Shown here: positions 4,505 through 61,711 of the stretch, piece by piece
Position numbering within the stretch: the first letter of the stretch is position 1
How the letters are laid out: each line of letters opens with the position of its first letter
Assembly (NCBI RefSeq): GCF_014646155.1
Contig: NZ_BMMX01000001.1
Span: 421,720-485,719, forward strand
Direction of reading: 5' to 3'
DNA length: 64,000 nt
Origin: Mangrovihabitans endophyticus
Lineage (GTDB): Bacteria; Actinomycetota; Actinomycetes; Mycobacteriales; Micromonosporaceae
Made by a program: the position numbers and the translations under genes
Notes under the pieces: model-generated
What the model was told of the DNA's origin: nothing
Database searches by the model: none
What the model saw: the letters and a program-made list of their open reading frames with translations, nothing else

Positions 4505-4517
4505 GGAGGGACCACGA

Positions 4518-5345: not shown

Positions 5346-5466
5346 CAATGGGGAGCCGCGCCGCGATTCCAGGAGACCATGGCGTACCTTCCCGGCCGGT
5401 CATCCGCCTCGGGGTTCTGATCCGACCCGCCACGGACCACGGCACCATCACCAAGGAGATTCAGAA

Positions 5467-6618: not shown

Positions 6619-6662
6619 CCGGTCGGCCGACCGCGGCGGCAACGCTGCGGCCGACGGTCACC
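6614..6662. terminator. Hairpin between convergent genes
   Basis: GGTGACCGGTCGGCCG (6614-6629) pairs with CGGCCGACGGTCACC (6648-6662): 15 base pairs with one bulged G and an 18-base loop. It sits between the ends of the nucleotidyltransferase gene (+) and the methyltransferase gene (-). No T tract is visible, as is usual for high-GC actinomycete terminators. A 14-base perfect palindrome (6620-6633) lies within the left arm. Confidence 0.6.
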
Positions 6663-6688
6663 ATGCCGTGCCGGGGGCGGCGATCGGA

Positions 6689-9202: not shown

Positions 9203-10445
9203 CGCGGGTCACTTCCTGGAGTTCGGTGGCGCGTCCCGCGGCAGGCGAGAAGCTGATGGGCAATGCGGTGAGGAAGCGGAAGTTGATGCTGTCCAGCCAC
9301 GGCGGGTTCTCGTCGAGCAACCGCCACTGCCGGGTGCGAGCCAGCAGCGTGCCTATGGCCGCCTCGATTTCCACAAGGGAGAGCGCCGCGCCGAGGCAGT
9401 AGTGGATGCCGTGTCCGAACGAGAGGTGGTCGCCCGCGCGGCGAGTGACCAGCAGGCTGTCCGGGTCGGAATAGTGCCGGGGGTCGCGGTTTCCGGCGCC
9501 GAGCACCAGCGTGACGGAGTCGCCGCGCCGGATCCGATGGCCGCCGTACTCCAGGTCGGCGAGGGCGATGCGCGTGGTGAACTGGACGGAGCTGTCATAG
9601 CGCAGGAACTCGTGCACCGCGCCGGGGAGGAGTTCCGGCTGGTCGCGCAGCAGATCGGCCTGGTCGGGATGGGCCATGAGCGCCAACACCGCGTTGCCGA
9701 TCAGATGGGTGGTCGTGGCCTGGCCCGCGTCGATGAGGAGCAGGAGATTGGCGATGATCTCGTCGTCGGTGAATGCGGCTCCGGCCTTCCGCGCGGCCAT
9801 CAGTTGCTCCAGCAGATCACCGTCGGCGCCGGCCCGGCGCTGCGCCAATCCCTGCTGGAAGACGGCGCGCAGGCTCTCGATGCGGCCGTGCTCCGCGGTG
9901 GACTGGGTGAAGAACTCGTGCAACAGCCCGCGCCAGTCGTCCAATAGATGGCGTGCGTCGGCAGGCACACCGGCGAGCAGGGCTATGACGTCGCGGCTCA
10001 GCGGCCGCGCGTAGTCGGCGATGACGTCCATCTCGCCGGCGTCGGCGAGCCGGTTCAGCAGGGCGGTCGCGATGCCTTGGATCGCGGGCCGCATCTGCCG
10101 GACGAACCGGGGCGTCAGCACCGGTTTCATCATGCCCCGCAGCCGTTCGTGGCGTGGCGGCTCGTTGAACAGCATCATGTCCGACAGCGCTTCGGCCAAG
10201 GGTTTCATGTCCGACTTGGAAGCCGCCGGGAGCTGTTCGTAGAATTCGCTGATCCGGGCGCCGGAGAGTCGGTTGTCCCGTGACAAATCGACGATTTCGC
10301 GATGGCCGAGAACGATCCAGCTCCGCAGCAGCGGATCCCAGTGAATAGGGCCTCCTGCGCGCAGCCGAGCATAAACGCCATACGTATCGCCAGCCCATTC
10401 TCGGCGCATTATGTCGAGCAGGCTGTTCGTATCACGATGGGTCAT
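9195..10445 (-). CDS. Cytochrome P450 (first of pair)
   Basis: A 416-residue cytochrome P450 opening the P450-P450-ferredoxin-methyltransferase operon. The heme loop is FGHGIHYCLG, the I-helix LLLIDAGQATTTH and the ExxR HEFLRYD. In the I-helix the usual acidic residue before the threonines is replaced by QA, which may mean altered proton delivery. The ATG at 10445 has GGGAG about nine bases upstream. P450s of this kind often beta-hydroxylate residues on carrier proteins; that is inference here. The promoter should lie in the 375-base gap upstream. Confidence 0.92.
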   Translation of the reverse strand: MTHRDTNSLLDIMRREWAGDTYGVYARLRAGGPIHWDPLLRSWIVLGHREIVDLSRDNRLSGARISEFYEQLPAASKSDMKPLAEALSDMMLFNEPPRHERLRGMMKPVLTPRFVRQMRPAIQGIATALLNRLADAGEMDVIADYARPLSRDVIALLAGVPADARHLLDDWRGLLHEFFTQSTAEHGRIESLRAVFQQGLAQRRAGADGDLLEQLMAARKAGAAFTDDEIIANLLLLIDAGQATTTHLIGNAVLALMAHPDQADLLRDQPELLPGAVHEFLRYDSSVQFTTRIALADLEYGGHRIRRGDSVTLVLGAGNRDPRHYSDPDSLLVTRRAGDHLSFGHGIHYCLGAALSLVEIEAAIGTLLARTRQWRLLDENPPWLDSINFRFLTALPISFSPAAGRATELQEVTRDG

Positions 10446-12599: not shown

Positions 12600-14585
12600 A
12601 TGATGCCTGTCAGCAGGCGTGGGCTGCTGCGCACGGCGGTGGGAACGGGCGCGGCGGCGGTGTACGCCGCTGCCACGAGCGATACTTCCCGGGCAGATCC
12701 CGGTGCGTCGCCCGATCCGTACGAGTCCGCGGTGCGTGATGCCCGGCTGACCTGGACGGCGCCACCCGTATCGGGCCCCGGCAGTCCCTGTTTGGGTAAT
12801 GGGTCTGTCGTTTCCCGGGTGTACACGGAACCGGGCCGTTCGGAGCTGTCGTTCGCGCTGGGACCGGCGGACCAGGTGCGGCATGGGCGGGCGCCGGTCC
12901 TGCGGCTGCGACCGCCCGGGGCGCTGAGCGCCCTGACGGTGGTCCTCGATCCCTGGGACGCGGAGGCGACTTTCGCGATGACCACCGCAGAGGGCCGGAC
13001 GGAGCTCACTGCGCTCGTCCAGCGGTCACTCGGCGTGCTGATGATTTCCTGGTCCGGCGACGCGGGACCCACCGGCTGGTCAGCGGAGCGGCCGGGCACG
13101 GGCGAGACGGCCCTGGACTGCCGTGAGATGCGGGCGGACGGCCGAACGCTGCTGCTCGTGGCGACCCACCCGCAAGCGTTGGCCGACGCCGCGGCCGAAT
13201 CCGCCACGGCCCTCATCGACGCCCATCGGGGGTGGTGGCATCGCTTCTACCGGCAGAGTTTCGTCCGGCTGACGGACCGCGCTGTGCAGCGATTCCATTG
13301 GCTCCAACAGTATGCCGCAGCCGCGACGACACCACCCGGGATCCTCCCGGCGGGGCGTTTCCCGCAGTTGCTCATCGGCACCGGCCACCTCGACCTGGGC
13401 CCGCGTGGGGAGCCGGGAACGTCAATCATGGCCGGTAACCCGCTGGCCGCCGGGATGCCGGGGGTGGGGTCGAAGGCGGGCCGGGCCGAGCACCCGGTCG
13501 CGGCGTGGGGTCTGCACCGGCTGTGGTCGATCTGGCAGCACGGCGGCGACCCGGGGGTCGTCGAGAACCTGCTCTACCCGGGTCTGAAGCGGGCGGTTGA
13601 GCTCTATGCCGGTTTCCTGAGGCCGGGACCTGATGGGCACCTGCACCTGCCGCTGACCCATTCGCCCGGGTGGGGGGATGTGGCGGACTGCTCACACGAT
13701 CTCGCGGCGTTGCGGTGGTCGCTGCGAACCCTGCTCTCGCTGCCGACGTCGTCCGAACGAGACGCGGCGGCTCGATCCCGCTGGGGGAGTCTGATGGAGC
13801 GGCTCGTCCCGCTTCATCGCGATGGCGGCGGAGTCATGGTCGGCGCGGGCGTGCCGCTCACCCGGCCGGTCGCCGACCCCGCGCACCTCGCGGCGATCTA
13901 CCCGTACCGGGAGAGCAACTGGCTGGAGCCCGCCGACCGGGAGCTCATGCGCCGCGACGTCGGCCGGTGGGCCGCCCGGCGCGATGGCTGGACGGCCGCC
14001 TCTCACGCGGCAGCCGCCGCGCTGTTCGCCACGACGCGGGACGGGGAGGCGGCGGCGGACTGCCTCGCGCACCTGCTCGACGCCGCGGACTCCACCCTCG
14101 CGGCCGGCGCCTCGGACCACGATGCGGGCGTGGTCGATCAGGATGCTTGGTGCACGGCCGGACAGGCCCTGCTCGACATGCTCGTCCAGGGCGACCGAGG
14201 CGTCGTGGACGTCTTTCCCGCGATTCCGGCGCGCTGGCCGGACCTGACGGTTGCGGGATTGCGCGCGCCGGGACGCCTCATGATCGACGCCGTCCGGGCG
14301 GACGGACGTACCGGTGCGGTCCGGGTGCGTGGCACCCCGGGTCGAGAGGTGATTCTGCGGCACGGCATCTCCGGTACGGTGCTTGTCCACGACGGTGCCG
14401 GCCGGACTCTGCCGGTGGCGGCCCGGAACGAACGCACTGTGGTTCTGCGGTTGCCCGCGAGCGGTGTCGCGGTCGTCGCGGATCGTCGGATCCGCGGGGC
14501 GAATTTCGTGCCGTCGGCGCGGAATCGGCCGTCTGAGTCGTTGGCCGAGGAGTTCAGCGCCGCTGGGGAATGCGCTACTCCATGA
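12600..14585 (+). CDS. Tat-exported GH95-like (alpha-L-fucosidase-like) protein
   Basis: A 661-residue protein with a twin-arginine signal (SRRGLLRTAVGTGAAA, cleavage probably after SRA near residue 32). Segments around HRGWWHRFYRQSFVRL, RFHWLQQYAAAAT and the C-terminal FPAIPARWPDLTVAGLRA resemble the catalytic and terminal regions of glycoside hydrolase family 95, so it may be a secreted glycosidase or a non-catalytic relative. The N-terminal domain seems short compared with usual GH95 proteins. It lies 43 bases after the exporter genes, same strand. No sugar-attachment gene is visible nearby, so its link to the peptide is unclear; it may be a bystander. Confidence 0.6.
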   Translation: MMPVSRRGLLRTAVGTGAAAVYAAATSDTSRADPGASPDPYESAVRDARLTWTAPPVSGPGSPCLGNGSVVSRVYTEPGRSELSFALGPADQVRHGRAPVLRLRPPGALSALTVVLDPWDAEATFAMTTAEGRTELTALVQRSLGVLMISWSGDAGPTGWSAERPGTGETALDCREMRADGRTLLLVATHPQALADAAAESATALIDAHRGWWHRFYRQSFVRLTDRAVQRFHWLQQYAAAATTPPGILPAGRFPQLLIGTGHLDLGPRGEPGTSIMAGNPLAAGMPGVGSKAGRAEHPVAAWGLHRLWSIWQHGGDPGVVENLLYPGLKRAVELYAGFLRPGPDGHLHLPLTHSPGWGDVADCSHDLAALRWSLRTLLSLPTSSERDAAARSRWGSLMERLVPLHRDGGGVMVGAGVPLTRPVADPAHLAAIYPYRESNWLEPADRELMRRDVGRWAARRDGWTAASHAAAAALFATTRDGEAAADCLAHLLDAADSTLAAGASDHDAGVVDQDAWCTAGQALLDMLVQGDRGVVDVFPAIPARWPDLTVAGLRAPGRLMIDAVRADGRTGAVRVRGTPGREVILRHGISGTVLVHDGAGRTLPVAARNERTVVLRLPASGVAVVADRRIRGANFVPSARNRPSESLAEEFSAAGECATP

Positions 14586-17914: not shown

Positions 17915-18658
17915 ATGAACCAGACGACTACGGCCGTCCGTGCCACCGGCCTGACCAGGATTTACGGCAGCGAGGACGCGAAAGTCACCGCTCTGTCGGA
18001 CGTGTCCGTGGAGTTTGAGCGGGGACAGTTCACCGCCATCATGGGGCCGTCCGGCTCAGGCAAGTCGACACTCATGCATTGCATTGCCGGACTCGATCAG
18101 GTGACCTCGGGGAAGGTGTGGATCGGGGGCACGGAGCTGACCGTCCTCAATGACGATCAATTGACCGCACTGCGCCGGGAAAAGGTCGGTTTCATCTTCC
18201 AGGCATTCAATCTGCTGCCCACCCTGACCGCGCTGGAGAACATCACACTTCCGCTCGACCTCGCCGGCCGTCGCCCCGATCGGTCCGTGGTGGACCGAGT
18301 GGTCGACACGCTGTTGCTGCGGGATCGCCTCGATCACCGTCCCAGCCAGCTCTCCGGCGGCCAGCAGCAGCGCGTGGCCTGCGCACGTGCGCTGGTCACC
18401 GAGCCGGAGGTGGTGTTCGCCGACGAACCGACCGGCGCGCTCGACTCGCAGACCTCCGCGGAACTGCTCGGCTTCCTGCGTCAGAGCGTCGACGATTTCG
18501 GCCAGACCGTGGTCATGGTCACTCACGATCCCACGGCCGCCGCGTACGCCGACAGGGTTCTCTTCCTCGCCGACGGCCGATTGGTCGGGGATCTCACCGC
18601 GCCGACCGCGGACACGGTGCTGGACTGGATGAAGTCCATGGAGAGGGCGGCCCACTGA
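17915..18658 (+). CDS. MacB/LolD-type ABC transporter ATPase
   Basis: A 247-residue ATP-binding subunit. It shows Walker [10 protein letters not shown] near residue 45, Q-loop [15 protein letters not shown], signature [15 protein letters not shown], Walker [14 protein letters not shown] and VMVTHD. The sequence type is that of mechanotransmission ABC systems, which work with FtsX-fold permeases to expel or displace membrane-active peptides. It overlaps the permease gene by one base (TGATG). The neighbouring two-component system on the other strand makes a sense-and-respond resistance module likely. Confidence 0.94.
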
Positions 18659-21165
18659 TGCTGCGCGCGGCTCTGCGAGAACTGTTGGCCCACAAGGGTC
18701 GGATGGCCATGACCATCATCGCCATCGCGCTCGGTGCGGCCGCCCTGGTCGCGAGCTGGGTGGTGAGCGAGTCGATTTCGCACACGCTGGTCAGTGTGGA
18801 CACCCGGACCGACGTCGGCGTCTCGGTGCAGAGCCTGCACCAAGACGCCGCGCTCACCCCAGCGGACCGCGACCGGCTGGCGGCTCTGCCGGGCGTCAGA
18901 CGCGCCACTGGAGTGATCCTGGGCCGGGCCGGTGTGGTGTCGCCCGACGGCAAGCTGGCGTCGGCCGCCACCAGCATGGATCTCGCCGGGACCAACGCCG
19001 ACGACACCGGTCGGATGGTGACAGTCGCGGGCCGCGCCCCGAGCGCTGCGGGCGAGGTCGCCATCAACGCGGATGTCGCCCGGCGCAACGACCTCGCCGT
19101 CGGCATGCCGGTGCGGGTGCTGGTGGCAGACGGCCGGTCCGAGGCCGCGACCGTGGTAGGCACCTTCGATTACCGCACGCTCGGCTCGCCGTCAACCACG
19201 GACTGGGGGTCGGACACCGTGCCGACGGTGGCCTTCGACGCGCAATCCGCGCCGGGCCTGCTCGGCGACCGCTTCAGCCGGATCGAGCTCGCCACGGCGC
19301 CGGGCACGGATCTGAAGCGGCTGCGTGACGCGGCCGAGCGTGTGGTCGGCGGCGTGTCCTACCGGATATCGACCGGGCCCGAGCTGGCGCGCGACGCCCG
19401 CGAGCGCGCCACCTCGGACATCTGGGATCTGCGTTTCACCCTGTTGCCCTTCGCGGTCCTCGCGATGCTCGTCGGCATGACGGTCATCAGCAACACTTTC
19501 ACCATCCTGGTCACCCAGCGCATCCGGCAGTTCGCACTGCTGCGGGCGGTCGGCGCCAGCCGGCGGCAGGTACGCCGCACGGTGCTCGCCGAGGCGGTGG
19601 TGCTCGGCCTGGCCGGTGGCACCGTCGGGGTGCTGCTCGGAGTGGCGCTCGGGCCGGGGGTCATCGCGATCACCCGACCGGCGGACGACATCGACTACAC
19701 GGTGCCCCCGCTCGCCGTCCTGCTCGGCTATCTGGCGGGCGTGCTGATCACCGTCGTCGCGGCCTACGGGTCGGCTCGGCGTGCCTCCGCGGTCTCCCCG
19801 ATGGCGGCGCTGCGCTCCGACGCCACCGTGCCGCGCGACATCCGTACCCGCAATGTGTTGCTGGGTGTCGGGGCGCTGCTGGTCTCCGCGGCGCTGGTCT
19901 TCGCCACCCGCAACCCGAACGCCGGGACGGCGTCGCGGATCGTAGCGATCGGCGGGGCGGTCCTCGGCGGCTTGGGCGTGCTGCTGCTGACCCCGACGAT
20001 CGCCGGCGCGGTCCTGGGCACGGTGATGCGGCTGATGCGCCAGGGCGGCCGTCCGGCCCTGCGATTCGGTGTGCGCAATGCGGCCCGGGACCCGCGCCGG
20101 ACCGCCAGCACTGCTTCCGCGATCACCGTGGGGCTGGCACTGATCTGCGCGTTCGCGAGCCTCAGCGCCAGTCTGTCCACCTTGATCGGCTCCACCACCC
20201 GCGCCACCGTGCCGACCACCACCACCGTGCTCCAGCCCGGCGGGGGCAACGCCGCCACGCTCGACCCGGCCGACCTCACGACCGCCCGCCATCTGCCCGG
20301 CGTCAGTGCCGCGGCGGCCAGCCGGGACATGCTGGTCGACGTCGACTACCCGGGCGGCACCACGAAGCGCCGCGCATCCGCAATCGAGCCGGAGGCACTG
20401 AACGGCCTGCTCACGCCGCACATCACGGGCGGTTCGGGCGACCTGCGCAAGGGATTCGTCATCGCCCAGAACCAGGCCGACATGCTGGGCCTGGGCGTCG
20501 GTGACCCGGTCACCTTGCAGATCACACCGCAGACCTCGGTGCGCTCCCGGGTGGCCGGCGTCTACGAGGCGACCGAGTTGCAGTCCAGCATCTACTTCGA
20601 CGTGTCCCTGGCGCCGACGTCCCTGCGCGAGAGCGTCTCAGTGATCTATCTGACCGGCCCGGACCCGGCGGCCGTCCGGGCCAGGGCCGAGGCGGCCTTC
20701 CGGGACCGCCCGGACGTTACGGTCACCGACCAGCAGGGACTCGTCGCGCAGGGCGTGGAGGCGCAGCGGTTGGCGTTCGTCGTGATGTACGCGATGTTCG
20801 CGGTGGCGTTGATCATCGCACTCTTCGGTGTGGTGAACACGCTGGCGCTGTCGGTCAGCGAACGTGGCCGCGAGATCGGCATGGCCCGGGCGGTCGGCGC
20901 GAGCCGGTCCCTGATCCGCCGCTCGATCCGGGTGGAGAGCCTGGTGATCTCGCTGCTCGGCGCGCTGCTCGGTGTCCTGGTCGGCGTGGCCGTCGGCACC
21001 GTCATGCAACATGCGATGCTCGGGCAGCGACTGTCGGCCGTCACCATTCCGCTCGACCTGATCGGAGCCGGCCTCGCCGCCATCGTCCTGGCCGCGATGC
21101 TGGCCGCGGCGTGGCCGGCGCGCCGCGCGGCGTCCACCGCGGCGCTGTCCGCCATCGCGGAATGA
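18658..21165 (+). CDS. FtsX-like ABC transporter permease
   Basis: An 835-residue membrane protein with two FtsX domains. It has an N-terminal transmembrane helix (residues 17-38), a large extracytoplasmic domain, three helices near 265-390, a second N-terminal-type helix near 485, another extracytoplasmic domain, and three closing helices near 705-825. The usual motifs flank the helices (FALLRAVGASRRQVRR and IGMARAVGASRSLIRR). It functions with the preceding ATPase, probably in removal of envelope-bound peptide. The gene ends five bases before a 42-base perfect hairpin. Confidence 0.93.
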   Translation: MLRAALRELLAHKGRMAMTIIAIALGAAALVASWVVSESISHTLVSVDTRTDVGVSVQSLHQDAALTPADRDRLAALPGVRRATGVILGRAGVVSPDGKLASAATSMDLAGTNADDTGRMVTVAGRAPSAAGEVAINADVARRNDLAVGMPVRVLVADGRSEAATVVGTFDYRTLGSPSTTDWGSDTVPTVAFDAQSAPGLLGDRFSRIELATAPGTDLKRLRDAAERVVGGVSYRISTGPELARDARERATSDIWDLRFTLLPFAVLAMLVGMTVISNTFTILVTQRIRQFALLRAVGASRRQVRRTVLAEAVVLGLAGGTVGVLLGVALGPGVIAITRPADDIDYTVPPLAVLLGYLAGVLITVVAAYGSARRASAVSPMAALRSDATVPRDIRTRNVLLGVGALLVSAALVFATRNPNAGTASRIVAIGGAVLGGLGVLLLTPTIAGAVLGTVMRLMRQGGRPALRFGVRNAARDPRRTASTASAITVGLALICAFASLSASLSTLIGSTTRATVPTTTTVLQPGGGNAATLDPADLTTARHLPGVSAAAASRDMLVDVDYPGGTTKRRASAIEPEALNGLLTPHITGGSGDLRKGFVIAQNQADMLGLGVGDPVTLQITPQTSVRSRVAGVYEATELQSSIYFDVSLAPTSLRESVSVIYLTGPDPAAVRARAEAAFRDRPDVTVTDQQGLVAQGVEAQRLAFVVMYAMFAVALIIALFGVVNTLALSVSERGREIGMARAVGASRSLIRRSIRVESLVISLLGALLGVLVGVAVGTVMQHAMLGQRLSAVTIPLDLIGAGLAAIVLAAMLAAAWPARRAASTAALSAIAE

Positions 21166-21217: not shown

Positions 21218-23428
21218 TCAGCTCGCCACGTCCGTCGGTGCCGCAACCGTCGATCGCGGGTGCGCCGAGGACCGGTGCGACGCCCCGCGCTCGTGCGTCG
21301 CGGCGCCGGTGCTCAGCAACCACAGCCAGGTCGACGGCGCTCCGAACGGCTCGCGCCGCAGCGCGGTGAGCCCGGCCGCGGTGAAGGCGTCCTCATAGGT
21401 CCGCAGGCTCAGGATCGGTACGTCCATGTACGCGTGCAGCAGTTCGAACCCGACGGAGAAGATGGGCAGCGTGTCCTGCGGCGCAGCCCAGTTCTGACCG
21501 ACGGTGTCCGCGATGAGGAATCGGGTCGCGTCCGGGAACCGGCGGCGCAAGGACCGCAGCACCCCGGCCGGGTCCCCGGTGGCGTTGAACAGGTCGTGCA
21601 TCATCAGGAAGCTGCTGACCAGATCCACATCGGGAAAGGTGCGCCCGTCCTCGGCCAGGAGATCATCATGCACGACCCGGACCTGTTCGGTCAGCTCCTC
21701 GGCCGCGATCCGCTCCGCCGCCGCCCGCAGCGCGTTCCGATCCACCTCGATGCCCCAGCCGCGGCCGGTGCGCGACCTCCGGCTGAGCCGCACCAGCCGG
21801 CTGCCGTCGCCGCACCCGAGGTCCGCGACGGCGTCGAATTGCAGGTCGGCGACGACGGACTCCTCGATGGTGAGCATCAGGGACTTGCCGACCATGCCGG
21901 AACCCACGGCGACATGGCCGCCATCCCGGTCGACGCCGTCACCGAACCGGGCCTCGCCGGTAGCCATCGCCGCCAGAGAGCTCAGCATCTCGCCGTAGCC
22001 ACCGACCCCCCAGGTGAAGAAACCCCGGTACGGCAGCAGCGCCGTCCCGTTCTCGGTCAGCGCGACCGCGAAGTCGGCCGGGTCCGCCGGGCTGGGCAGG
22101 GAGTCGAGTCGCAGATAGCCGAGGAGAACGGCGGTGCGCAGCAGGGGCGCCAGCTTCCCCGGATCGCTGCCAGTCCGCTGGGCCAGCTCGGTCAGCGTGC
22201 GGTCGCCCTCCTGCAACGCCCGCCAGACGTCGAGCTGGTTGAGTGCGAACACCACGTTCGCGCCGACGTATCCGTTGAACAGCGTCGACGGCGCCAGCCC
22301 GTGGGCCGGTGGCGCGATCCCCGCGCCGGATGCGCCCAGACCGGCCCGCTCCGTGCCGTGGGGCGCCGGTGTGACAAGCACCTCACGCAGCGCGCGGCAG
22401 ACCGCGTCCACCTGATCCTGGGTGCCCACCGTGATGCGGAGGTGCCCGGGCAGCCCGAAACTGGTCAGGTCCCGTACCAGGACGCGTTCCTGGTCCGCGA
22501 GGACCCGAGCGAGGGCGGTGCTGTCGCCGGGCGTACGAACCAGCACGAAGTTGGTCACCGAGGGTACGTACGACAGGCCGAGCGCGGCCAGGCCGTGACA
22601 CATCCGGTCCCGTGCGGCGGCGGTGCGGCAGCGGATGTCGTCCAGATAGTCGTCCGCGCCCAGGGCGGCCAGGGCCGCCTCCTGGGCCGGACGGTTCACG
22701 CTGAACGGCAGCGACTCGCCGACGTTGCGGATCCGGGCGATCAGATCAGCAGGGCCCGCCGCGTACCCGATCCGCAGCGAGGCCAGGCCCCACGCCTTCG
22801 AGAAGGTCCGCAGGACCAGGAGCCGCCGGCCGTCGCGTACCGCGCCGAGGGCGTATTCGTAGGCTGGTCCGGCGTACTCCATGTACGCCTCGTCGAAGAC
22901 CGCGACGGTGCCGGCCATCTCGGCGGCCCGGATCAGCCGCTCGACGTCGGCGGGTTCCATGACGGTCCCGGTCGGGTTGTGCGGGTTGCAGATGTAGGCC
23001 ACCGCGTATCCACGGCCGAGCGCGTCGGTGAGCGCGTCGACCGGCACCCGGTGGTTTTCCATCGGCAACCGGTCGACCGAGGCGTGGGCGATACCGGCGG
23101 AGGCGGCGTACCCGGGGAACGTGCCCTCGGTGACCAGCACCCGGTCGCCGGGCGAGAGCAACGCCAGCGCGGTGATCAGGACGAGTTCGTCGGCGCCGTT
23201 GCCGATCGCCAACGAGTCCTCCGGCATGCCGAGCCCTGCGGCAAGACGGCGTCGCAGCGCCGCCCGGCTGCTGTCGGGGTACGTCGCGCACCGCGTCTCC
23301 AGCTCCTTGATCGCCGTCTCGATCACACCCGGCGGGGGGCCGTACGGGTTCTCGTTGCAGTGCAGCCGGATGGCGCTGTCGTCGTCCGGGAGAGTGTGGT
23401 GGGACATCAAGTTGGGCACGCGGGACAT
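21218..23428 (-). CDS. Fused HisC-type aminotransferase / SAM C-methyltransferase
   Basis: A 736-residue two-domain enzyme. Residues 15-352 are a fold-type I aminotransferase of the histidinol-phosphate family (NPHNPTGT near 148, PLP lysine K211 in TFSKAWG). After a glycine/alanine-rich linker (about 352-385), the second half has a winged-helix dimerisation segment (385-460) and a Rossmann methyltransferase (VADLGCGDGS near 534; SSFLMMHDLFN), like MppJ or MarI-type 2-oxoacid C3-methyltransferases. Separate enzymes of this pair (MarG and MarI; StnR and StnQ1) convert tryptophan via indolepyruvate to beta-methyltryptophan, so one protein could do both steps here. ATG 23428 has GGAGGGAAG upstream; the longer upstream frame is not coding-like. 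Confidence 0.85.
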   Translation of the reverse strand: MSRVPNLMSHHTLPDDDSAIRLHCNENPYGPPPGVIETAIKELETRCATYPDSSRAALRRRLAAGLGMPEDSLAIGNGADELVLITALALLSPGDRVLVTEGTFPGYAASAGIAHASVDRLPMENHRVPVDALTDALGRGYAVAYICNPHNPTGTVMEPADVERLIRAAEMAGTVAVFDEAYMEYAGPAYEYALGAVRDGRRLLVLRTFSKAWGLASLRIGYAAGPADLIARIRNVGESLPFSVNRPAQEAALAALGADDYLDDIRCRTAAARDRMCHGLAALGLSYVPSVTNFVLVRTPGDSTALARVLADQERVLVRDLTSFGLPGHLRITVGTQDQVDAVCRALREVLVTPAPHGTERAGLGASGAGIAPPAHGLAPSTLFNGYVGANVVFALNQLDVWRALQEGDRTLTELAQRTGSDPGKLAPLLRTAVLLGYLRLDSLPSPADPADFAVALTENGTALLPYRGFFTWGVGGYGEMLSSLAAMATGEARFGDGVDRDGGHVAVGSGMVGKSLMLTIEESVVADLQFDAVADLGCGDGSRLVRLSRRSRTGRGWGIEVDRNALRAAAERIAAEELTEQVRVVHDDLLAEDGRTFPDVDLVSSFLMMHDLFNATGDPAGVLRSLRRRFPDATRFLIADTVGQNWAAPQDTLPIFSVGFELLHAYMDVPILSLRTYEDAFTAAGLTALRREPFGAPSTWLWLLSTGAATHERGASHRSSAHPRSTVAAPTDVAS

Positions 23429-23514
23429 GCGGTGGCTTCCCTCCGGCTTGGGGCACGGTCGCGCCGGCTTCGGCTCGGCCGCTGTCGAATGTGTGCAGCG
23501 GTGCGTCCGGTCGG

Positions 23515-26241
23515 TCAGAACGTCACGCCGGGTGATTGGAACGCGGGGCCGAGGACGGGTGACGGGTCGTCGCCGGCGGGCACGTCGAACAACTTTCGAG
23601 CCTGGACCTGGAGCTGGTACATGAGGCCGACGACGTCGTCGAGCTCCTCGGGGTGCCCGTCGACCACCCGATGCAGCCCGGTCAGCAGATTCGTGTAAAA
23701 GGTGTCGCAGAGGGTGGACTCGCGGCGGGCGACCGAGCCGGCCGCGAGCCGATAGGTGTCGGGGTCGTCGACCATCGGGTAGACGCCTGCCGGGTCGAAC
23801 GGGATCGCCGGGCCTTCGAAGACCCATCGGCCGTCCGCGGCGCGGATCAGTTGCCGTCCCTCCACGATCTCCTGGAACCGGTAGTAGTGTCCCAGCTCGT
23901 CGGGGTCGGCGAGGCCGTCGTCGTCGAGGTCGTGCGGGCTGCCCTCACCCTGCTCGATGATCTCGAAGATGGCGAGCAGGGCCGACGTGCGATCGGTCAC
24001 CCGGATCAGCACCCCGGGCGCATCCGGCCAGGCGATCTGCCGGGCCTGGTCCCCGGTGAACAGGTTGCCGGCCCGGTCCAGGCGGGTGACGGCTCTGGCG
24101 ATCTGGTTGTAGAACCATCCGATGGTCTGCGGGTGGTACTCCGCCTTCGCGAACCACTTCTCAAGCGCGGCCATCGCCGCGGCGTCGGCCGCACGAATGC
24201 GGCCGTCGCGCTCCACCGTGACGCTGTCTCGGTCGAAGACGCGTCCGCGGAAGCGCTTGCCGTCGACCGTCGGGCACTCCGGCTGCTCGATCGCCATGAA
24301 GGTGTCGCGTACGTGGTCGATGCTCATCCGCCGCAGCCGCACGGTCAGGTCGGGCAGGACCGGACCGGGCAGCTTGCCGGGATACGTCGGCACCAGTCCC
24401 GGACGGCCGACCACCGGACGGCCGCCGACCGCATTGAGGAGGTTGCAGACCTGGACCATGTGCTGCATCTCCTCCAGCACCACGCCCCGGATCAGCTCGG
24501 CGATCTCCGTGTTCTGACCGGGTCGGAGGGAGAGAAGGGCGGTCAGGTACGGCGGAATGGTGGCCTGCTCCAGATAGACGGCGGTCTGCAGGACCGCACG
24601 CAGATCGGCGACCGTGTCGATCTCAAGGATCGGCGGCTTCGGAGCGGTGTCCAACCATTTCACGATCATGTCTCGCTTTCCGGGGGAGAGGTCGCGCGTC
24701 ACGGGCATGTGGTTCGGTGAAGCTCGTGGCGCCAGCAAGGTCCGCCTGATATAGACGGCGTGTTTCACCACGTCGTCGTAACGTCCCAGGTCGCAGACTG
24801 CCCGCATGGCCGGGAAGAGGTTCGCGTACTGCTGGAGGATCGGCTGCACGTCGCGGAACCAGGTGGGCCGTTCCGGCGGGTCGAAGGCGGCGAAGACCCG
24901 CACGCTGAGGGTGCCCTCCGGCACGTCCGGCGCGTTGGCGAAGCCGTACTGAAGCTGGGTGACCACCCCGTCCAGATTCGCCCGGGGGCTACCCGGGTCG
25001 ACGCCGGTGAGCGGGACCTCCGCACGACCTCGCCCGTCGGTGACGCAGCGGTCCGGGTGGGTGACGGCGTCCGGATGGGCGCCGGGTTTGAGGAAGATCT
25101 CCGCCCCGGGCAGCGGGCGGCCGTGCCGCAGCGCGTGGAGCACGGCCGTCGCGGAATCCTCGGCGGCGCCGGCGAACAGTCGGAACACGAAACCGTCGGC
25201 TCGCAGGATCGTCGCATCGGCGTTCTCGGCCAGCAGCACGGGCGGCTGCGTCCCGGCGCCCACCACCGCCAGCCGGCCGGTGACCGCGGCGTCCAACTGC
25301 GCGGGTGTCAACGGCACGCTCACGATCCCGGCGACTCGCTCGTAGTCCTCGGGCACGACGTCGATCGGGGCGAGCACGGTCGGCGAGTCTCCCGCCCCGA
25401 GGACGGCCAGGCGCAACGGGCCGGTCTGCACCGGAGGCCCGCCGCGTCCGGTGGCGGGAACGCTGTTGCCGAGGTCGAGCACCACCGTGCGGGCGGCGAC
25501 ATCGATGCGGCAGGGCGCGTGATGCAGCGTGCTGCCGGGCCAGGCCAGCAGCCTCCGTCCTGCCACGAAGTGGTAGGGCTCACCAGACGCGTACGGGCCG
25601 ATGCAACCGACCAGGCGGCCGAAGGTCAGCGTGTCCGGCCACTGCTCGATCCCGTCCTCGACCGCGCCCATGGTGAACTTGATGGAGAGCATGCCGTCGG
25701 CGGTGGCGTCGCGCAGCGCCCGCAGCGCCGGCGAATTCAGCGTCGGCGCCCATCGCACGCCGGTGAGGACGGACTGATATGTCGCTGCGGGATCCCCCCT
25801 GCCGGACGGCAGCTTGGCGCGGATCCACATGTCGTCCATGGCAGCCGGCCGGAAGTCCGCCCGCAGCGCCTCCCGGCCGGTCACGTCCAGCAACCGCAGA
25901 CGCAGTCCCCAGATCTCCGGCACCATCTGGTTCTCCGGATCCAAGTCTGCGAACTTGGCGTTCACCCGCAGGTCGTCGTCGGCCACCCGGCCGTCCACAA
26001 TCGGATCGTCCGCCGCGGCGCCGCCGGGCAGAAGCGCGGCGGTGATCCGGATGTCGGAGAGCCGGATCGAACCGGTGCCCCGTGGATTCCACAACCCGTT
26101 GATGTCCGGCAGGTTCATCCGCCAGGTGAAGCGCGGTTCGAAGAGCTGATTGTCGTAGTACGGCACGGCGTTGTTGATGGTCGCCACGTCCGCCTGGAAG
26201 GTCCCGGCGAAGCAGATCCGGGGAAGGCCGAGGTATGACAA
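23515..26241 (-). CDS. VioB/RebD-like protein with ferritin-like domain
   Basis: A 908-residue protein. The N-terminus (SYLGLPRICFAGTF) parallels that of VioB (MSILDFPRI), and a ferritin-like helical domain spans roughly residues 535-720, with EEMQH at 590-594. VioB, RebD and StaD couple two indolepyruvate imines on the way to violacein or indolocarbazoles. This protein is about 90-100 residues shorter, and no RebO/VioA-type tryptophan oxidase is nearby, so its substrate may be an imine from the neighbouring PLP enzymes. The TTG start at 26241 is supported by GGAGG at 26251-26255 and by the N-terminal match. It lies 21 bases after the halogenase stop. Confidence 0.75.
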   Translation of the reverse strand: MSYLGLPRICFAGTFQADVATINNAVPYYDNQLFEPRFTWRMNLPDINGLWNPRGTGSIRLSDIRITAALLPGGAAADDPIVDGRVADDDLRVNAKFADLDPENQMVPEIWGLRLRLLDVTGREALRADFRPAAMDDMWIRAKLPSGRGDPAATYQSVLTGVRWAPTLNSPALRALRDATADGMLSIKFTMGAVEDGIEQWPDTLTFGRLVGCIGPYASGEPYHFVAGRRLLAWPGSTLHHAPCRIDVAARTVVLDLGNSVPATGRGGPPVQTGPLRLAVLGAGDSPTVLAPIDVVPEDYERVAGIVSVPLTPAQLDAAVTGRLAVVGAGTQPPVLLAENADATILRADGFVFRLFAGAAEDSATAVLHALRHGRPLPGAEIFLKPGAHPDAVTHPDRCVTDGRGRAEVPLTGVDPGSPRANLDGVVTQLQYGFANAPDVPEGTLSVRVFAAFDPPERPTWFRDVQPILQQYANLFPAMRAVCDLGRYDDVVKHAVYIRRTLLAPRASPNHMPVTRDLSPGKRDMIVKWLDTAPKPPILEIDTVADLRAVLQTAVYLEQATIPPYLTALLSLRPGQNTEIAELIRGVVLEEMQHMVQVCNLLNAVGGRPVVGRPGLVPTYPGKLPGPVLPDLTVRLRRMSIDHVRDTFMAIEQPECPTVDGKRFRGRVFDRDSVTVERDGRIRAADAAAMAALEKWFAKAEYHPQTIGWFYNQIARAVTRLDRAGNLFTGDQARQIAWPDAPGVLIRVTDRTSALLAIFEIIEQGEGSPHDLDDDGLADPDELGHYYRFQEIVEGRQLIRAADGRWVFEGPAIPFDPAGVYPMVDDPDTYRLAAGSVARRESTLCDTFYTNLLTGLHRVVDGHPEELDDVVGLMYQLQVQARKLFDVPAGDDPSPVLGPAFQSPGVTF

Positions 26242-26262
26242 GGTACGGGTCCTCCGGCAGGA

Positions 26263-27894
26263 TCAGCGCCCCGGAACGGCGACCTCGGGCGGGAGGCCGT
26301 GCAGATGGGCAAAGTAGGCGTAGTGGCTGGGCAACTGGTCGACGAGTTGCTTCGTCCGGTCCCGGATGCTTTGCAGCTCCCGCTGGGCCGCTGCGTCGTC
26401 GAAGAGTTCGAGCGCGGCGGGTGGACGCAGCGGCAGACCGCCGAGTCCGAGGAGCATCGCGGCGTAGGAATAGGACTCGAAGCCGTGATAGTGCGGGAAA
26501 ACGTTCTCGATGTCCGGCAACTGGGTGCCCCAGCTCTCAAGCCGGGCCGCCAGCGAGTCGGGCATCGGGCGCGTCTTGGTGTCCCGCCAGTAGTCGTTGT
26601 CCTGACGGGCGGCGGCGTAATAGTGCAGGGTCAGGAACTCGCGGACGCCGTCCATCACGTTGGCGACCTGACGGTTGTACGAGGCGGTCACCGCGTCGCT
26701 GAAGCCGCGGCCGGGGAAGTGCTTGACCAGTTGCTCGATGCCGTTCTGGATGAAGAAGATGCCGGTCGATTCCAGTGGTTCCACGAACCCGCTGGACAGC
26801 CCGACGGCGACGCAGTTGCGCACCCAGGACCGGGCACTGCGGCCGATGCGCATCTTGATGTGGTTGGCCTGCGCCTCCTCGCCGTCCGGCCCGACGAACG
26901 CGCGCAGTGTCCGCTCCGCGGTATCCGCGTCGCAATACGAGCTGGAGTACACATAGCCGGTGCCGACGCGACCGAGGAGCGGAATCGTCCAGATCCAGCC
27001 CGCGTCCTGCGCGGTGGCCGTGGTACACGGCCGGATACCGCGGCGGGCCATGTCGACCGGCACTCGCAGCGCCACCGCCCTGTCGTTGGGCAGTGTGTCC
27101 TGATAGGACACAAACGGCTCTTCGGCCACCCGGTTCATCAGCAGGGAACGGAAGCCGGTGCAGTCGATGAAGAGATCGCCGGACAGGTCGCCGTGTTCGG
27201 CCGTGGTGACCCGTTCGATCCATCCGCCTTCGTCGAGCACCACGTCCACGACGTCGTCCAGCACCTGCCGGACGCCGCGGTCGACGGCGTAGCCGGTCAG
27301 GTAGCGGGCGAGCAGCGCGGCGTCGAAGTGGTAGGCGTACGGGAACTGTGTGTCCTGCTCGGTGAGGGTGGTGCGATACTGCGGCGTGTCGCCGTCCTCC
27401 CGGAAGTCCTGCTCGAAGATGCCGTTGTCGAGGTACCGCGGCGAACGCATGGCGTCGCAGAGCGAGGCGATGAGGAAACAGTCCCGGTCGAAGCGCTCGC
27501 CCGGCCGCAGGTGCAGCCACCAGTCGGTGATCGGGAAGCCGTCCACGACCCGTAGCCGCTCGAACGGGTGATAGAAGTGGTGCCCCGGTCGCCGCCAGTC
27601 CTCGAACCTGATGGCCAGCTTGTAGGTGGCCTTACAGGCCGGCATCCATTCGGTCTCGTCGAGGCCCAGGTACTCGAAGAAGTGCCGTACGGTGCTGAAG
27701 GTGGCCTCGCCGACGCCGATCGTCGGCACGTTCTTCGACTCCACCAGTGTGACGCGGAGGGCGTCGCCGAACGCGGCGCGCAGGTAGGAAGCGGTCATCC
27801 ATCCGGCGGTGCCGCCGCCGACGATGACCACGTCCCGGACCGGCCGGTGCCCTAACTCGTGTGTGGTTGCCGTCATGTGTGCTCCCGTTATCAT
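26263..27894 (-). CDS. Flavin-dependent tryptophan halogenase
   Basis: A 543-residue FADH2-dependent halogenase of the PrnA/RebH family, chlorinating or brominating an indole ring. It has GGGTAGW (FAD binding), catalytic-type lysine in ATYKLAIRF (about residue 92), the diagnostic WIWTIP motif, and GFVEPLESTG, which holds the conserved glutamate. The ATG at 27894 forms an ATGA overlap with the preceding stop; an alternative ATG at 27876 would give 537 residues. The leucine codon at 27853-27855 (residue 14) is TTA. The flavin reductase encoded two genes upstream would supply reduced flavin. Regiochemistry (5, 6 or 7) and free versus bound tryptophan cannot be told. Confidence 0.93.
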   Translation of the reverse strand: MITGAHMTATTHELGHRPVRDVVIVGGGTAGWMTASYLRAAFGDALRVTLVESKNVPTIGVGEATFSTVRHFFEYLGLDETEWMPACKATYKLAIRFEDWRRPGHHFYHPFERLRVVDGFPITDWWLHLRPGERFDRDCFLIASLCDAMRSPRYLDNGIFEQDFREDGDTPQYRTTLTEQDTQFPYAYHFDAALLARYLTGYAVDRGVRQVLDDVVDVVLDEGGWIERVTTAEHGDLSGDLFIDCTGFRSLLMNRVAEEPFVSYQDTLPNDRAVALRVPVDMARRGIRPCTTATAQDAGWIWTIPLLGRVGTGYVYSSSYCDADTAERTLRAFVGPDGEEAQANHIKMRIGRSARSWVRNCVAVGLSSGFVEPLESTGIFFIQNGIEQLVKHFPGRGFSDAVTASYNRQVANVMDGVREFLTLHYYAAARQDNDYWRDTKTRPMPDSLAARLESWGTQLPDIENVFPHYHGFESYSYAAMLLGLGGLPLRPPAALELFDDAAAQRELQSIRDRTKQLVDQLPSHYAYFAHLHGLPPEVAVPGR

Positions 27895-29189
27895 GGTGCT
27901 CTCAGGTCGTGAATGGCAGACAGCGTGTCCGCGATCTCGCGGGGAAAGTTGACGATGGACGTGCCGATCCGGGCGTACGGCGGCGGGTTCGGCGAGGTGC
28001 TGATGCGGATCCGTCGCTCCGCCAGGCGGTCGGCCGTCTGCGCGCCGGTCAGTCCGTCGACGTCGAAGCAGGTGATGCCCGCGCCGAGCGCCGGGTCGAG
28101 GGGGGTGCGCAGCGCCACGTGCGGCATGGCCGCGAGTCCCTCGCGCAGATGGGCGGACAGCTCCGTGACGCGCTCCGCGACGGCCGAGCGGCCGATGCCG
28201 CGGTGGAACGCGACCGCCGCGGGAAGGGCGAACATGTGCTCGAACGCGTGGAACGTGCCGGGTGTCATGTTGGCGATGCTGTCCTCGCGGAAGATCGGGG
28301 TCACCGCGGGCCGTAGGTAGGGCCACGCGTCGCGGCGCCCCCAGATCAGCCCGGTGCCGCGAGGACCGCACAGCCATTTGTGCGTGCCCGCGGCCACGAC
28401 GTCGGCTCGCAGGTCGGGCAGGTCGGTGTCGACCGCCGCGAGACCGTGCACGCCGTCCACGATCAGCAGACACCGGTCCTCGGCGGCCCGGCCCCGGTTG
28501 GCCTCGGCCACTACGTCCGCCACGGCGGCCACGGGCATCCGGACACCGGTGCTGGACTGCACCCATGTGACGCCGACCGCGCGGGTCGCCGGACGGATCT
28601 CCTGTTGCAGGCGACCGACGATCTCGTCGACGGTGGCGTTCTCGGGGGCTGCGAACAGCGGTACGGTCCGCACCGTACCGTCATGCTTGTCGGCGGCGAG
28701 GATGGCCGCCCCCAGATGCGCGACGTGTTCCCGGTCGCTGAGCAGGAACTCCTGGCCGGGGCGCAGCGGGATTCCGTTGTAGACGTGGCCGAGTCCGACA
28801 GTCGTGTTCCCGGTGAGTGCGTACTCCTCGGCGGCGCCGCCGAGATAGCCGGCCAGCTCCGTGCGTACCCGGTCCCAGCCGGTCGGCCCGTCCGGCAGGG
28901 TGAGGCTGTCGACACGGGTGGGATCGGCGTCGATCTGCCGGCTCAGGTACGCGATCGCGTGACGTACCGGTTCCGGGTGCGACGAAAGGAAGAAGGCCGC
29001 CAGGTTGATCCATCGCGGGTCCAGCCGGAACTGGCGACGAACTGCCGTCCAGTCCGTCCCGCCGGCGGCGTAGGTCTCCCCGCCGGCGGCGTAGGCCGTC
29101 CCGTCGGCCGCGGCGGCGCCGACGACCGTGCCGGCTACGGCCGCGCTGGCACTTGCCAGGACTGTTCGGCGTGTGATTCCGGACGTCAT
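27891..29189 (-). CDS. Tat-exported class V aminotransferase-fold PLP enzyme
   Basis: A 432-residue PLP protein of the class V family (isopenicillin N epimerase/cysteine desulfurase-like), with the cofactor lysine K271 in AAGTHKW. A twin-arginine signal (TRRTVLASASAAVAG) and a short linker precede the domain, predicting a folded, exported enzyme. That is odd between two cytosolic enzymes. Just after the signal an 18-base stretch is nearly duplicated (AYAAGGE / TYAAGGT). Start ATG 29189 has GGAGGAGG upstream and an ATGA overlap with the flavin-reductase stop; the gene also overlaps the halogenase start. The reaction is unknown: transamination, epimerisation or lyase chemistry on the amino acid or peptide. 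Confidence 0.85.
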   Translation of the reverse strand: MTSGITRRTVLASASAAVAGTVVGAAAADGTAYAAGGETYAAGGTDWTAVRRQFRLDPRWINLAAFFLSSHPEPVRHAIAYLSRQIDADPTRVDSLTLPDGPTGWDRVRTELAGYLGGAAEEYALTGNTTVGLGHVYNGIPLRPGQEFLLSDREHVAHLGAAILAADKHDGTVRTVPLFAAPENATVDEIVGRLQQEIRPATRAVGVTWVQSSTGVRMPVAAVADVVAEANRGRAAEDRCLLIVDGVHGLAAVDTDLPDLRADVVAAGTHKWLCGPRGTGLIWGRRDAWPYLRPAVTPIFREDSIANMTPGTFHAFEHMFALPAAVAFHRGIGRSAVAERVTELSAHLREGLAAMPHVALRTPLDPALGAGITCFDVDGLTGAQTADRLAERRIRISTSPNPPPYARIGTSIVNFPREIADTLSAIHDLRAP

Positions 29190-29737
29190 GTGTCCTCCTC
29201 CGCGGTGGTCCAGGACGAATACCGATGCATCCCGCGCAGAAGCGGGATCATGGTGGAGCAGGTATGCCGGATGGCGGTGACGGCGCCGAACAAGACGATG
29301 TGATCGGCGATGGGCACAGCCTCGGCCGTGCGGCAGTCGGCTATGCCGTGCGCGTCGTCGATCAGGTGCGGCCCGGCGGCACCCGGCTCGTGTTCCCACC
29401 GGACTCGGTCGAATCGATCCGGAACCGCCGACGCGAACAACACGGCCGTCGCGCGGGCGGTGTGCCGCAGCAGGTTCACCGCGAACGTCCGCCGCCAGAG
29501 CACCGAGGCGAGCGTCGGGCTGCCCTGTCGTAGGCAGATGGACAGCATCGGCGGAAACAGCGACACACTGCACACCGAGGAACAGGTCATCCCGCGTGGA
29601 GCGCCGGCCGCGTCGGTGGTGGTGACCACGGCCACGCCGGTGGGAAAAGTCGCCATCAGGGAACTGAAATCCGTGCCGCTCACCGGGGCGTCGCCGACGT
29701 TCGGCAGTATCGCTGGCTCGTCCGTTGAACTCGTCAC
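29186..29737 (-). CDS. Flavin reductase (HpaC/RebF-like)
   Basis: A 183-residue short flavin reductase of the flavin_Reduct family, with the typical core ATFPTGVAVVTT and RGMTCSSVCSVSLFPPMLSI. It reduces FAD with NAD(P)H and would feed FADH2 to the tryptophan halogenase two genes downstream, as RebF does for RebH. The GTG at 29737 has GGAG seven bases upstream. It is the first gene of the five-gene operon running down to 21218, overlapping its neighbour by ATGA. Confidence 0.9.
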   Translation of the reverse strand: MTSSTDEPAILPNVGDAPVSGTDFSSLMATFPTGVAVVTTTDAAGAPRGMTCSSVCSVSLFPPMLSICLRQGSPTLASVLWRRTFAVNLLRHTARATAVLFASAVPDRFDRVRWEHEPGAAGPHLIDDAHGIADCRTAEAVPIADHIVLFGAVTAIRHTCSTMIPLLRGMHRYSSWTTAEEDT

Positions 29738-30209
29738 GGTGCGACTCCGATCCGATCGTCGATTCGTGCGCGGACGATGTGCATTGACGGGGGGAACCGT
29801 ACCATCGACTTTCGTTTACGGCTCCGTTGTTAAGTGGCGTCGGAAAGTCGCTGATTGGCCGTGGACGGCCGTGGTTAAGTCACCGGCTAAACACCGATGT
29901 AAAAGGCTCTCAGGCGTCGTCCACGGATCGGCTGCCTTGCTTGAGGACCACATTCACCTGCGAAGTTGCCGCCCGAAGTATCGCTTGACGTTCATGCCGC
30001 GGCCCGGCTACGGTCGGCGTGCCGGCTGACTGACACCGGTGTCATATTATTGACGGGGTTGGATTTTCTCCGCGGTCCGCATTTTTGCGATGACGAATCT
30101 TGAGGGTGTCACACGGTTCCAGGATCTCGCCAATTATATTTACGTGTATAAATGTTTTGGGTATTGTGCGCGGCGGGCCGAAAAGGCTCGACAGGGAGTC
30201 GGGTGACGA
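29738..30209. promoter_or_regulatory. Divergent control region, Trp operon / main NRPS operon
   Basis: A 472-base gap between outward-facing operons, notably AT-richer near 30100-30165. A perfect 14-base palindrome TGACACCGGTGTCA lies at 30031-30044 with an extra half-site GGTGTCA at 30105-30111, a likely operator. A stretch TTATATTTACGTGTATAAA at about 30134-30152 may hold a -10 element. GTTAAGT occurs twice in the same orientation (29829-29835 and 29874-29880), 45 bases apart. AGGGAG at 30193-30198 is the NRPS ribosome site. No gene is supported. Confidence 0.6.

Positions 30210-61707
<31,498 letters not shown>

Positions 61708-61711
<4 letters not shown>

Follow-up and report, generated by a model that had tools for sequence, protein, structure and literature searches.

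A probable tailoring operon with a tryptophan halogenase and a PvdN-like enzyme beside a telomycin-type peptide synthetase in Mangrovihabitans endophyticus

What does an operon make that unites a flavin reductase, a class V pyridoxal phosphate (PLP) enzyme, a tryptophan halogenase, a large ferritin-like protein and an aminotransferase-methyltransferase fusion? Such an operon lies in a 64,000-nucleotide stretch of Mangrovihabitans endophyticus DNA (the window; C1:421720-485719 of host genome G000, a draft of 7.58 Mb in 220 contigs), which was read together with its flanks (C1:385000-539999). The five genes all occupy the minus strand within 21218-29737; neighbours overlap by 4 bases (ATGA) at two junctions and are 21 and 86 bases apart at the other two. 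The genes, order, strand, overlaps and gaps given in the initial annotation were reproduced exactly from the coordinates. Its placement of a tailoring operon beside a nonribosomal peptide synthetase (NRPS) was also borne out, the NRPS genes running divergently across 472 bases. This region is likely the shared promoter region of both, judging from the layout, and a sigma-70 consensus pair was not found in 29600-30300. We lean, by a modest measure, towards the view that the operon supplies tailoring enzymes to a telomycin-type lipopeptide cluster, whose product would be a chlorinated, beta-methylated telomycin-type peptide that is deacylated and then modified at its N-terminus outside the cell.

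The NRPS genes provided the first line of evidence. Genes 40-42 encode 11 modules, with 4+5+2 adenylation domains and a terminal thioesterase, and gene 40 starts, by eye, with a condensation-type sequence. Pocket codes were read as nine positions mapped through known motifs, position 278 being uncertain in some. For the telomycin synthetase Tem22, the codes DAYLTGLMNK (called Ile) and DVQFVSQVMK (Pro) are given in Table 7 of PMC9113097, a paper in which members of the clade share at least 80% identity with Tem22; we found that DAYLTGLMN is identical to the Tem22 Leu/Ile code at 9/9 positions and that DVQFISQVI differs from the Pro code at 2/9. Telomycin is an undecapeptide whose residues include beta-methyltryptophan, dehydrotryptophan, beta-hydroxyleucine and two 3-hydroxyprolines (PMC6331918). 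It has a tail of two residues and loses its lipid after release (PMC9113097), and it is described as acting on cardiolipin of bacterial membranes (PMC4807238). The codes of modules 2-5 here (DASTVAAVE, DVWHISLVD, DAKNLGHVN and DVFSLAAVY) do not match those of telomycin Ser2, Thr3, allo-Thr4 and Ala5, which sets this telomycin-type cluster apart from telomycin itself; DVFSLAAVY matched no residue assignment. From known codes, we take DLTKIGAVN to be Asp-like, DASTVAAVE aromatic-like, DVWHISLVD Ser, DILQLGLVW (module 6) Gly-like, and DVQYAAHVV (module 7) and DVQFISQVI (module 11) Pro-like. The residue order of telomycin presumably has Gly then Pro at 6-7 and Pro at 11, as in the modules here. 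Krisynomycin, a chlorinated peptide of Streptomyces canus, was considered and ruled out, being described as a heptadepsipeptide with prenylated and 7-chloro-tryptophan.

The genes around the synthetase are consistent with a lipopeptide. After the NRPS genes come an MbtH-like gene (by sequence), a penicillin-amidase-type acylase, an alpha/beta hydrolase (g45), a P450 and an Asp/Asn beta-hydroxylase-type gene, and beyond these an ATPase-type gene, an adenosine monophosphate (AMP) ligase (PF00501, 208 bits) and an acyl carrier protein (ACP; 82 amino acids, PF00550, 56 bits), the last two at L005, right of the window. The ligase is probably a fatty acyl-AMP ligase for the lipid start. The acylase (PF01804, 412 bits; PvdQ model 583.9 bits against a curated cut-off of 950) has a signal peptide judged by eye, and is predicted to be of a secreted type that removes the lipid. 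A methyltransferase gene also stands left of the operon.

The cluster type was not confined to this host. A search with the acylase kept 80 loci, and screening these with proteins of the cluster revealed the same cluster type in two of them, from Streptomyces sp. LUP47B (NZ_MJAH01000029.1 and a second contig) and Actinoplanes utahensis NBRC 13244. Among the acylase matches listed in 392 Streptomyces genomes, none exceeded 54% identity except that of LUP47B. Hydrolase g45 had matches at E 1e-70 in 47 of 350 genomes of the family, among them G000 and, by coordinates, A. utahensis, and one of ten g45 neighbourhoods, G1145, proved a full relative. Related NRPS modules (50-54%), with no acylase or ferritin-like match, occurred in four others (L226, L229, L231 and L232, of which L226 and L229 are short contigs), showing that the ferritin-like gene is not part of every related NRPS cluster; L228 and L230 had g46-like P450s and weak NRPS matches, and three further neighbourhoods gave no NRPS match. 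In LUP47B, contig C22 carries P450 g26 (65%), the ferritin-like gene (63%) and, adjoining it, the fusion (55% overall; halves 58% and 54%), together with the hydrolase (63%), acylase (61%), MbtH (81%) and NRPS pieces (50-58%). Contig C19 ends in an NRPS gene start and has the ACP (47%), the ligase (60%), the halogenase (76%) and, two genes away from it, the flavin reductase (53%); the two contigs are probably one cluster split at contig ends. A. utahensis and G1145 keep P450 g26 (63 and 60%), the ferritin-like gene (52 and 54%), the acylase, the hydrolase and MbtH. No fusion or halogenase match was found on the stretches of these two, both contigs of which begin inside NRPS genes; in A. utahensis, a halogenase of 44% identity stands next to other NRPS genes on a separate contig. 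The initial annotation was aware of no described pathway with the full five-gene combination. Four of the five families recur in LUP47B within this cluster type, so that the operon cannot count as unique; only the PvdN-like class V enzyme has no counterpart there, and this addition is the unusual part.

Next, the halogenase was assigned. It has the tryptophan halogenase motifs GxGxxG, WxWxIP and QFPYAYHF, and tryptophan halogenases fill the six top places among its PDB matches (three 5-, one 6- and two unpositioned). The enzyme is thus a genuine tryptophan halogenase, and a placement among non-indole halogenases, which would have refuted the initial reading, did not come out. These matches include the 5-halogenase 8fov (835 bits), the 6-halogenase SttH (804 bits), the 5-halogenase PyrH (653 bits) and two enzymes without a stated position (784 and 762 bits), and RebH and PrnA reached only 368-376 bits. 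By its sequence, the enzyme is of the tryptophan 5-halogenase type and not RebH-like. A triad has been described that separates PyrH (F-E-T) from SttH (L-P-P) (PMC5071727). In the present halogenase it is F-E-S, within HYHGFESYS, the same as in 8fov, which predicts 5-chlorination; the prediction is less firm for the LUP47B orthologue, which has F-E-P. The module 2 code in both halogenase clusters is DAST[VI]AAV[ED]. As a tryptophan code of daptomycin also has an acidic last residue, a chlorinated tryptophan at position 2 would be our guess.

We then considered the beta-methylation enzyme. Residues 15-350 of the fusion match HisC-type aminotransferases, residues 386-639 match a 2-ketoarginine methyltransferase model (77.7 bits) and residues 467-694 match MppJ; the methyltransferase Pfam models are weaker (34.5 bits or less). 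Among structures, MppJ was the best match of the methyltransferase half (85 bits), with the 2-ketoarginine enzyme at 60. Beta-methyltryptophan pathways of the MarG/MarI/MarH type use an aminotransferase, a keto-acid C-methyltransferase and a cupin-type partner, MarH. An aminotransferase and a keto-acid C-methyltransferase are present here as one fused protein; among the Pfam-scanned genes, a subset of the region's genes, there was no MarH-like cupin. The fusion would make beta-methyltryptophan, as one would expect of a relative of telomycin, and the beta-methylation enzyme claimed at the outset fits the evidence in this form.

The fusion might instead make another beta-methyl residue, such as beta-methyl-Asp or beta-methyl-Glu, to be oxidized by the ferritin-like protein and P450 g26. 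In both A. utahensis and G1145, the ferritin-like gene and P450 g26 are separated by genes for glutamate mutase (MutE and a B12-binding protein), which would supply beta-methyl-Asp (L196:15412-17221 and L227:13990-15805, respectively; Pfam-tested in A. utahensis, with the G1145 copies 74 and 73% identical), and methyltransferases of the fusion's family also use 2-ketoarginine. LUP47B has no glutamate mutase genes in its cluster, the fusion adjoining the ferritin-like gene instead. We nevertheless think this alternative improbable: the fusion was found in two clusters with the codes DAAM[IV]GAVT and DAG[AT]LGVVL, whereas the six readable G1145 codes are different, the methyltransferase half is closer to MppJ than to the 2-ketoarginine enzyme, and beta-methyltryptophan is among the residues given for telomycin (PMC6331918).

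The large ferritin-like protein had been taken as the VioB/RebD-like member of a RebF/RebH/RebD set. It consists of a long N-terminal part and a C-terminal ferritin-like domain, and its TTG start is supported by the same (V/M)SYLG beginning in the orthologues. It scored 16.9 bits to the VioB model TIGR04492 (cut-off 1250) and the A. utahensis orthologue gave no match at 0.001, whereas RebD-like proteins of genomes G618 and G655 scored 680 and 788 bits, likewise under the VioB cut-off. BLAST in a small local database aligned it to these RebD-like proteins at 26% over 646-760 positions (E 2e-10 and 3e-11). Closer relatives (32-38%) are gene pairs in Azospirillum, Mycetohabitans and Gloeothece, annotated 'hypothetical protein' and 'ferritin-like protein', in which the two parts are adjacent separate genes that do not reveal a function. 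E558, E591, H594, E652, E766 and H785 are invariant in 10/10 aligned sequences and are putative metal ligands. A scan of genome contigs with the ferritin-like query gave 17 stretches and no confirmed hit; it was insensitive, missing two relatives later reached through the acylase, and was not used. A structure predicted from a three-sequence alignment was unusable (mean predicted local distance difference test 37.7, predicted template modelling score 0.25).

Could the ferritin-like protein couple or oxidize an indolepyruvate imine to give an imine-derived or dimeric indole unit, as the RebF/RebH/RebD reading implies? The RebD homology is weak yet long, the putative metal-ligand residues are common to both groups, and the halogenase and flavin reductase share the operon. 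Yet the RebD-like genes of G618 and G655 adjoin a PF01593 amino-acid oxidase (in G618 also a P450), and none lies within C1:385-540 kb, the nearest on the contig being at 560.6 kb. Furthermore, among the four clusters with the ferritin-like gene, P450 g26 occurs in 4/4, the halogenase in 2/4 and the fusion in 2/4, neither of the latter being on the examined stretches of the remaining two, which suggests that the ferritin-like protein is tied to P450 g26 and not to chlorination or methylation of tryptophan. With the halogenase of 5-type as well, we consider the RebF/RebH/RebD reading very unlikely and the imine-derived unit unsupported. A distant relative of RebD with a ferritin-like domain is what stands of that assignment, and the protein would be a tailoring oxidase that acts on the peptide or a residue alongside P450 g26, rather than a synthase dimerizing indolepyruvate imine. 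The possibly halogenated and beta-methylated tryptophan unit for the NRPS proposed in the initial annotation keeps the halogenase, the fusion and the NRPS context in its favour, without the imine-derived option.

The class V enzyme gave a different picture from the precursor enzyme first proposed. Its N-terminus is a twin-arginine translocation (Tat)-type signal, MTSGITRRTVLASASAAVAG, with a TRRTVL motif followed by a hydrophobic stretch; the signal was called by motif against the Tat consensus. The PvdN model NF051467 matched with 320 bits (curated equivalog cut-off 650), and PvdN in the PDB (5i90) with 271.3 bits over residues 7-423, compared to 55.6 bits for the next family. The alignment runs from the signal region to residue 423 and keeps the THKW lysine motif. 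We therefore class the enzyme as PvdN-family on sequence grounds. PvdN is reported to be Tat-exported and to convert residue 1 of pyoverdine, a Glu with free alpha-amino and alpha-carboxyl groups, to succinamide after PvdQ has stripped the fatty acid (PMC6206403), a reaction termed oxidative amidation (PMC11794154). Since the cluster also encodes a PvdQ-family acylase, a two-step maturation parallel to that of pyoverdine is an attractive reading.

The same enzyme may, on the other hand, serve an unrelated extracytoplasmic reaction or be a recent insertion in the operon. No PvdN-like protein turned up in the genomes of LUP47B and A. utahensis (best hits 55 and 56 bits) or on the examined G1145 stretch, and at E 1e-50 only 2/67 genomes of the host genus match, G000 included. 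A search of 298 genomes gave homologues above 200 bits in 12 besides G000, and an NRPS stood beside them in 0/10 neighbourhoods, from nine of those genomes (20-60 kb each, or to the contig end) and one from the host genus. This explanation we judge unlikely, because the gene overlaps both neighbours by four bases, suggesting that it is co-translated within the operon, and because the acylase, the classical partner type, is in the same cluster. In addition, two PvdN-family homologues of the host's bacterial family (L049 and L051) have, by eye, a twin-arginine motif and a lipobox-like Cys, suggesting lipoprotein versions.

A pathway for the favoured telomycin-type product can be proposed from these parts. 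The flavin reductase would feed reduced flavin adenine dinucleotide (FADH2) to the tryptophan 5-halogenase, giving 5-chlorotryptophan, while the fusion would convert tryptophan to indolepyruvate, methylate the beta-carbon and return the amino group to yield beta-methyltryptophan. Synthesis may start from a fatty acid loaded by the AMP ligase and ACP, and the NRPS would build an 11-residue cyclic depsipeptide from these units, to which the P450s and the ferritin-like oxidase could add further oxidations. The lipid form would then be exported, the secreted PvdQ-like acylase would remove the fatty acid, and the Tat-exported PvdN-like enzyme might act on the freed residue 1, by analogy to pyoverdine.

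Several points weigh against this explanation. The codes of modules 2-5 depart from telomycin's Ser, Thr, allo-Thr and Ala, and the comparison to the tem cluster used published pocket codes and composition. Both the PvdN and the PvdQ model scores fall under their curated cut-offs. The substrate residue of PvdN has a free alpha-carboxyl, which an alpha-linked Asp1 would lack, so that a different PLP reaction would be needed. None of the PvdN-like homologues examined stood beside an NRPS, and acylase homologues are so common (368/392 Streptomyces genomes at E 0.001, many weak) that the acylase alone is not diagnostic. The glutamate mutase genes of A. utahensis and G1145 stand at the fusion's place and form the chief case for another beta-methyl residue, and the LUP47B cluster is spread over two contigs.

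Table 1. Positions of the operon, the synthetase genes and associated features in the window
Feature	Position	Strand	Details
Flavin reductase, presumed FADH2 supplier for the halogenase	29186-29737	-	183 amino acids, GTG start; PF01613 (Flavin_Reduct) 104.6 bits
PvdN-family class V PLP enzyme with Tat-type signal	27891-29189	-	432 amino acids; Aminotran_5 95.8 bits
Tryptophan halogenase, flavin-dependent, 5-halogenase type	26263-27894	-	543 amino acids; PF04820 (Trp_halogenase) 462.1 bits
Large ferritin-like protein	23515-26241	-	908 amino acids, TTG start; PF12902 193.1 bits, residues 551-793 only
HisC-like aminotransferase and MppJ-like C-methyltransferase fusion	21218-23428	-	736 amino acids; Aminotran_1_2 202.3 bits
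Intergenic region, operon / first NRPS gene (divergent)	29738-30209		472 bases; gene layout
NRPS gene 40	30210-44363	+	Four adenylation domains: DLTKIGAVN, DASTVAAVE, DVWHISLVD, DAKNLGHVN
NRPS gene 41	44360-61711	+	Five adenylation domains: DVFSLAAVY, DILQLGLVW, DVQYAAHVV, DAAMIGAVT, DAGALGVVL
NRPS gene 42 (start only in window)	61693-64000, extends to window position 68841	+	Two modules, DAYLTGLMN and DVQFISQVI, and thioesterase
Cytochrome P450 g26	9195-10286	-	Kept alongside the ferritin-like gene in three related clusters; orthologues 65, 63, 60%
Second cytochrome P450 g25	7979-9202	-	Pfam-scanned; left of operon
ABC (ATP-binding cassette) transporter ATPase and permease, possible exporter	17915-21165	+	By sequence; ATPase 58%, permease 27% on LUP47B contig C19

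The Pfam families of all five operon proteins exceeded their cut-offs (Table 1). Directly after the AMP ligase and ACP, right of the window (C1:502272-509111, L005:2273-9112), are EBO-operon-like genes, of the types UbiA prenyltransferase, TIM-barrel isomerases, TatD-like hydrolase, type I phosphodiesterase and inositol-phosphate synthase. The split ferritin-like pairs of Mycetohabitans and Gloeothece are also near EBO-like genes, and LUP47B contig C19 has a 59% g54 homologue. On the left, a second NRPS region adjoins (window 1-7675, C1:390373-428337), with Ser-, Gly- and Pro-like codes and genes for a carbamoyltransferase, a thiamine pyrophosphate enzyme, an iron alcohol dehydrogenase/TauD fusion and luciferase-like and PhyH proteins. 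A glycoside-hydrolase-95-like protein (window 12819-14585) has counterparts in LUP47B, A. utahensis and G1145, at 37-39% identity on their cluster contigs. The LUP47B contig also contains a match to the WelO5 carrier-independent halogenase family (L193:12599-13432, 44 bits), possibly for a second halogenation or a hydroxylation. Separately, NZ_LT559118.1 of Nonomuraea gerenzanensis (11.85 Mb) is labelled a plasmid and is probably a chromosome.

A further proposal, which we hold possible rather than probable, is that a chlorinated telomycin-type antibiotic undergoes a Gram-positive, pyoverdine-style two-step maturation, by a PvdQ-like enzyme and then a Tat-exported PvdN-family oxidation of residue 1, and that a subgroup of these clusters shares a ferritin-like oxidase with chemistry unrelated to indolepyruvate-imine dimerization. 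No report of this combination surfaced among the papers listed by literature searches, which covered few subscription journals. A telomycin-related cluster that chlorinates its product and edits the N-terminus would be a lead to new analogues. If the proposal is true, PvdN-type chemistry extends from siderophores to an antibiotic, and a large ferritin-like family, otherwise known from RebD/VioB and unnamed gene pairs, gains a defined pathway.

Comparison with known systems places the cluster as follows. The uncharacterised LUP47B cluster shares four of the five operon families, the acylase, P450, ligase, ACP, MbtH and NRPS. It differs in that the halogenase and reductase lie on another contig than the ferritin-like gene and the fusion, that 12 adenylation domains were counted, with a Thr-like code in place of Leu before the last Pro, and that the best PvdN-like match in the genome reaches only 55 bits. 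Like RebD, StaD and VioB (PF12902, TIGR04492), the ferritin-like protein has a long N-terminal part, a ferritin-like domain and invariant putative metal ligands; it differs in its 26% identity, the lack of an oxidase partner here and the cluster type. MppJ and the 2-ketoarginine methyltransferase likewise C-methylate alpha-keto acids, but work with separate aminotransferases, whereas a HisC-like aminotransferase is fused here. As in pyoverdine maturation, an N-terminal nucleophile (Ntn)-type acylase and a Tat-signal class V PLP enzyme occur in one NRPS cluster, although here the predicted product is an antibiotic-type depsipeptide with an Asp-like residue 1, the organism is Gram-positive, and no chromophore genes were noticed among the scanned genes. 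With telomycin (tem/tlo, Streptomyces canus) the cluster shares undecapeptide size, the terminal dimodule codes, the AMP ligase and ACP start, the expected beta-methyltryptophan and a predicted lipid removal after release; the composition given for telomycin (PMC6331918) includes no chlorinated residue, and the tryptophan 5-halogenase and the PvdN-like enzyme are additions here.

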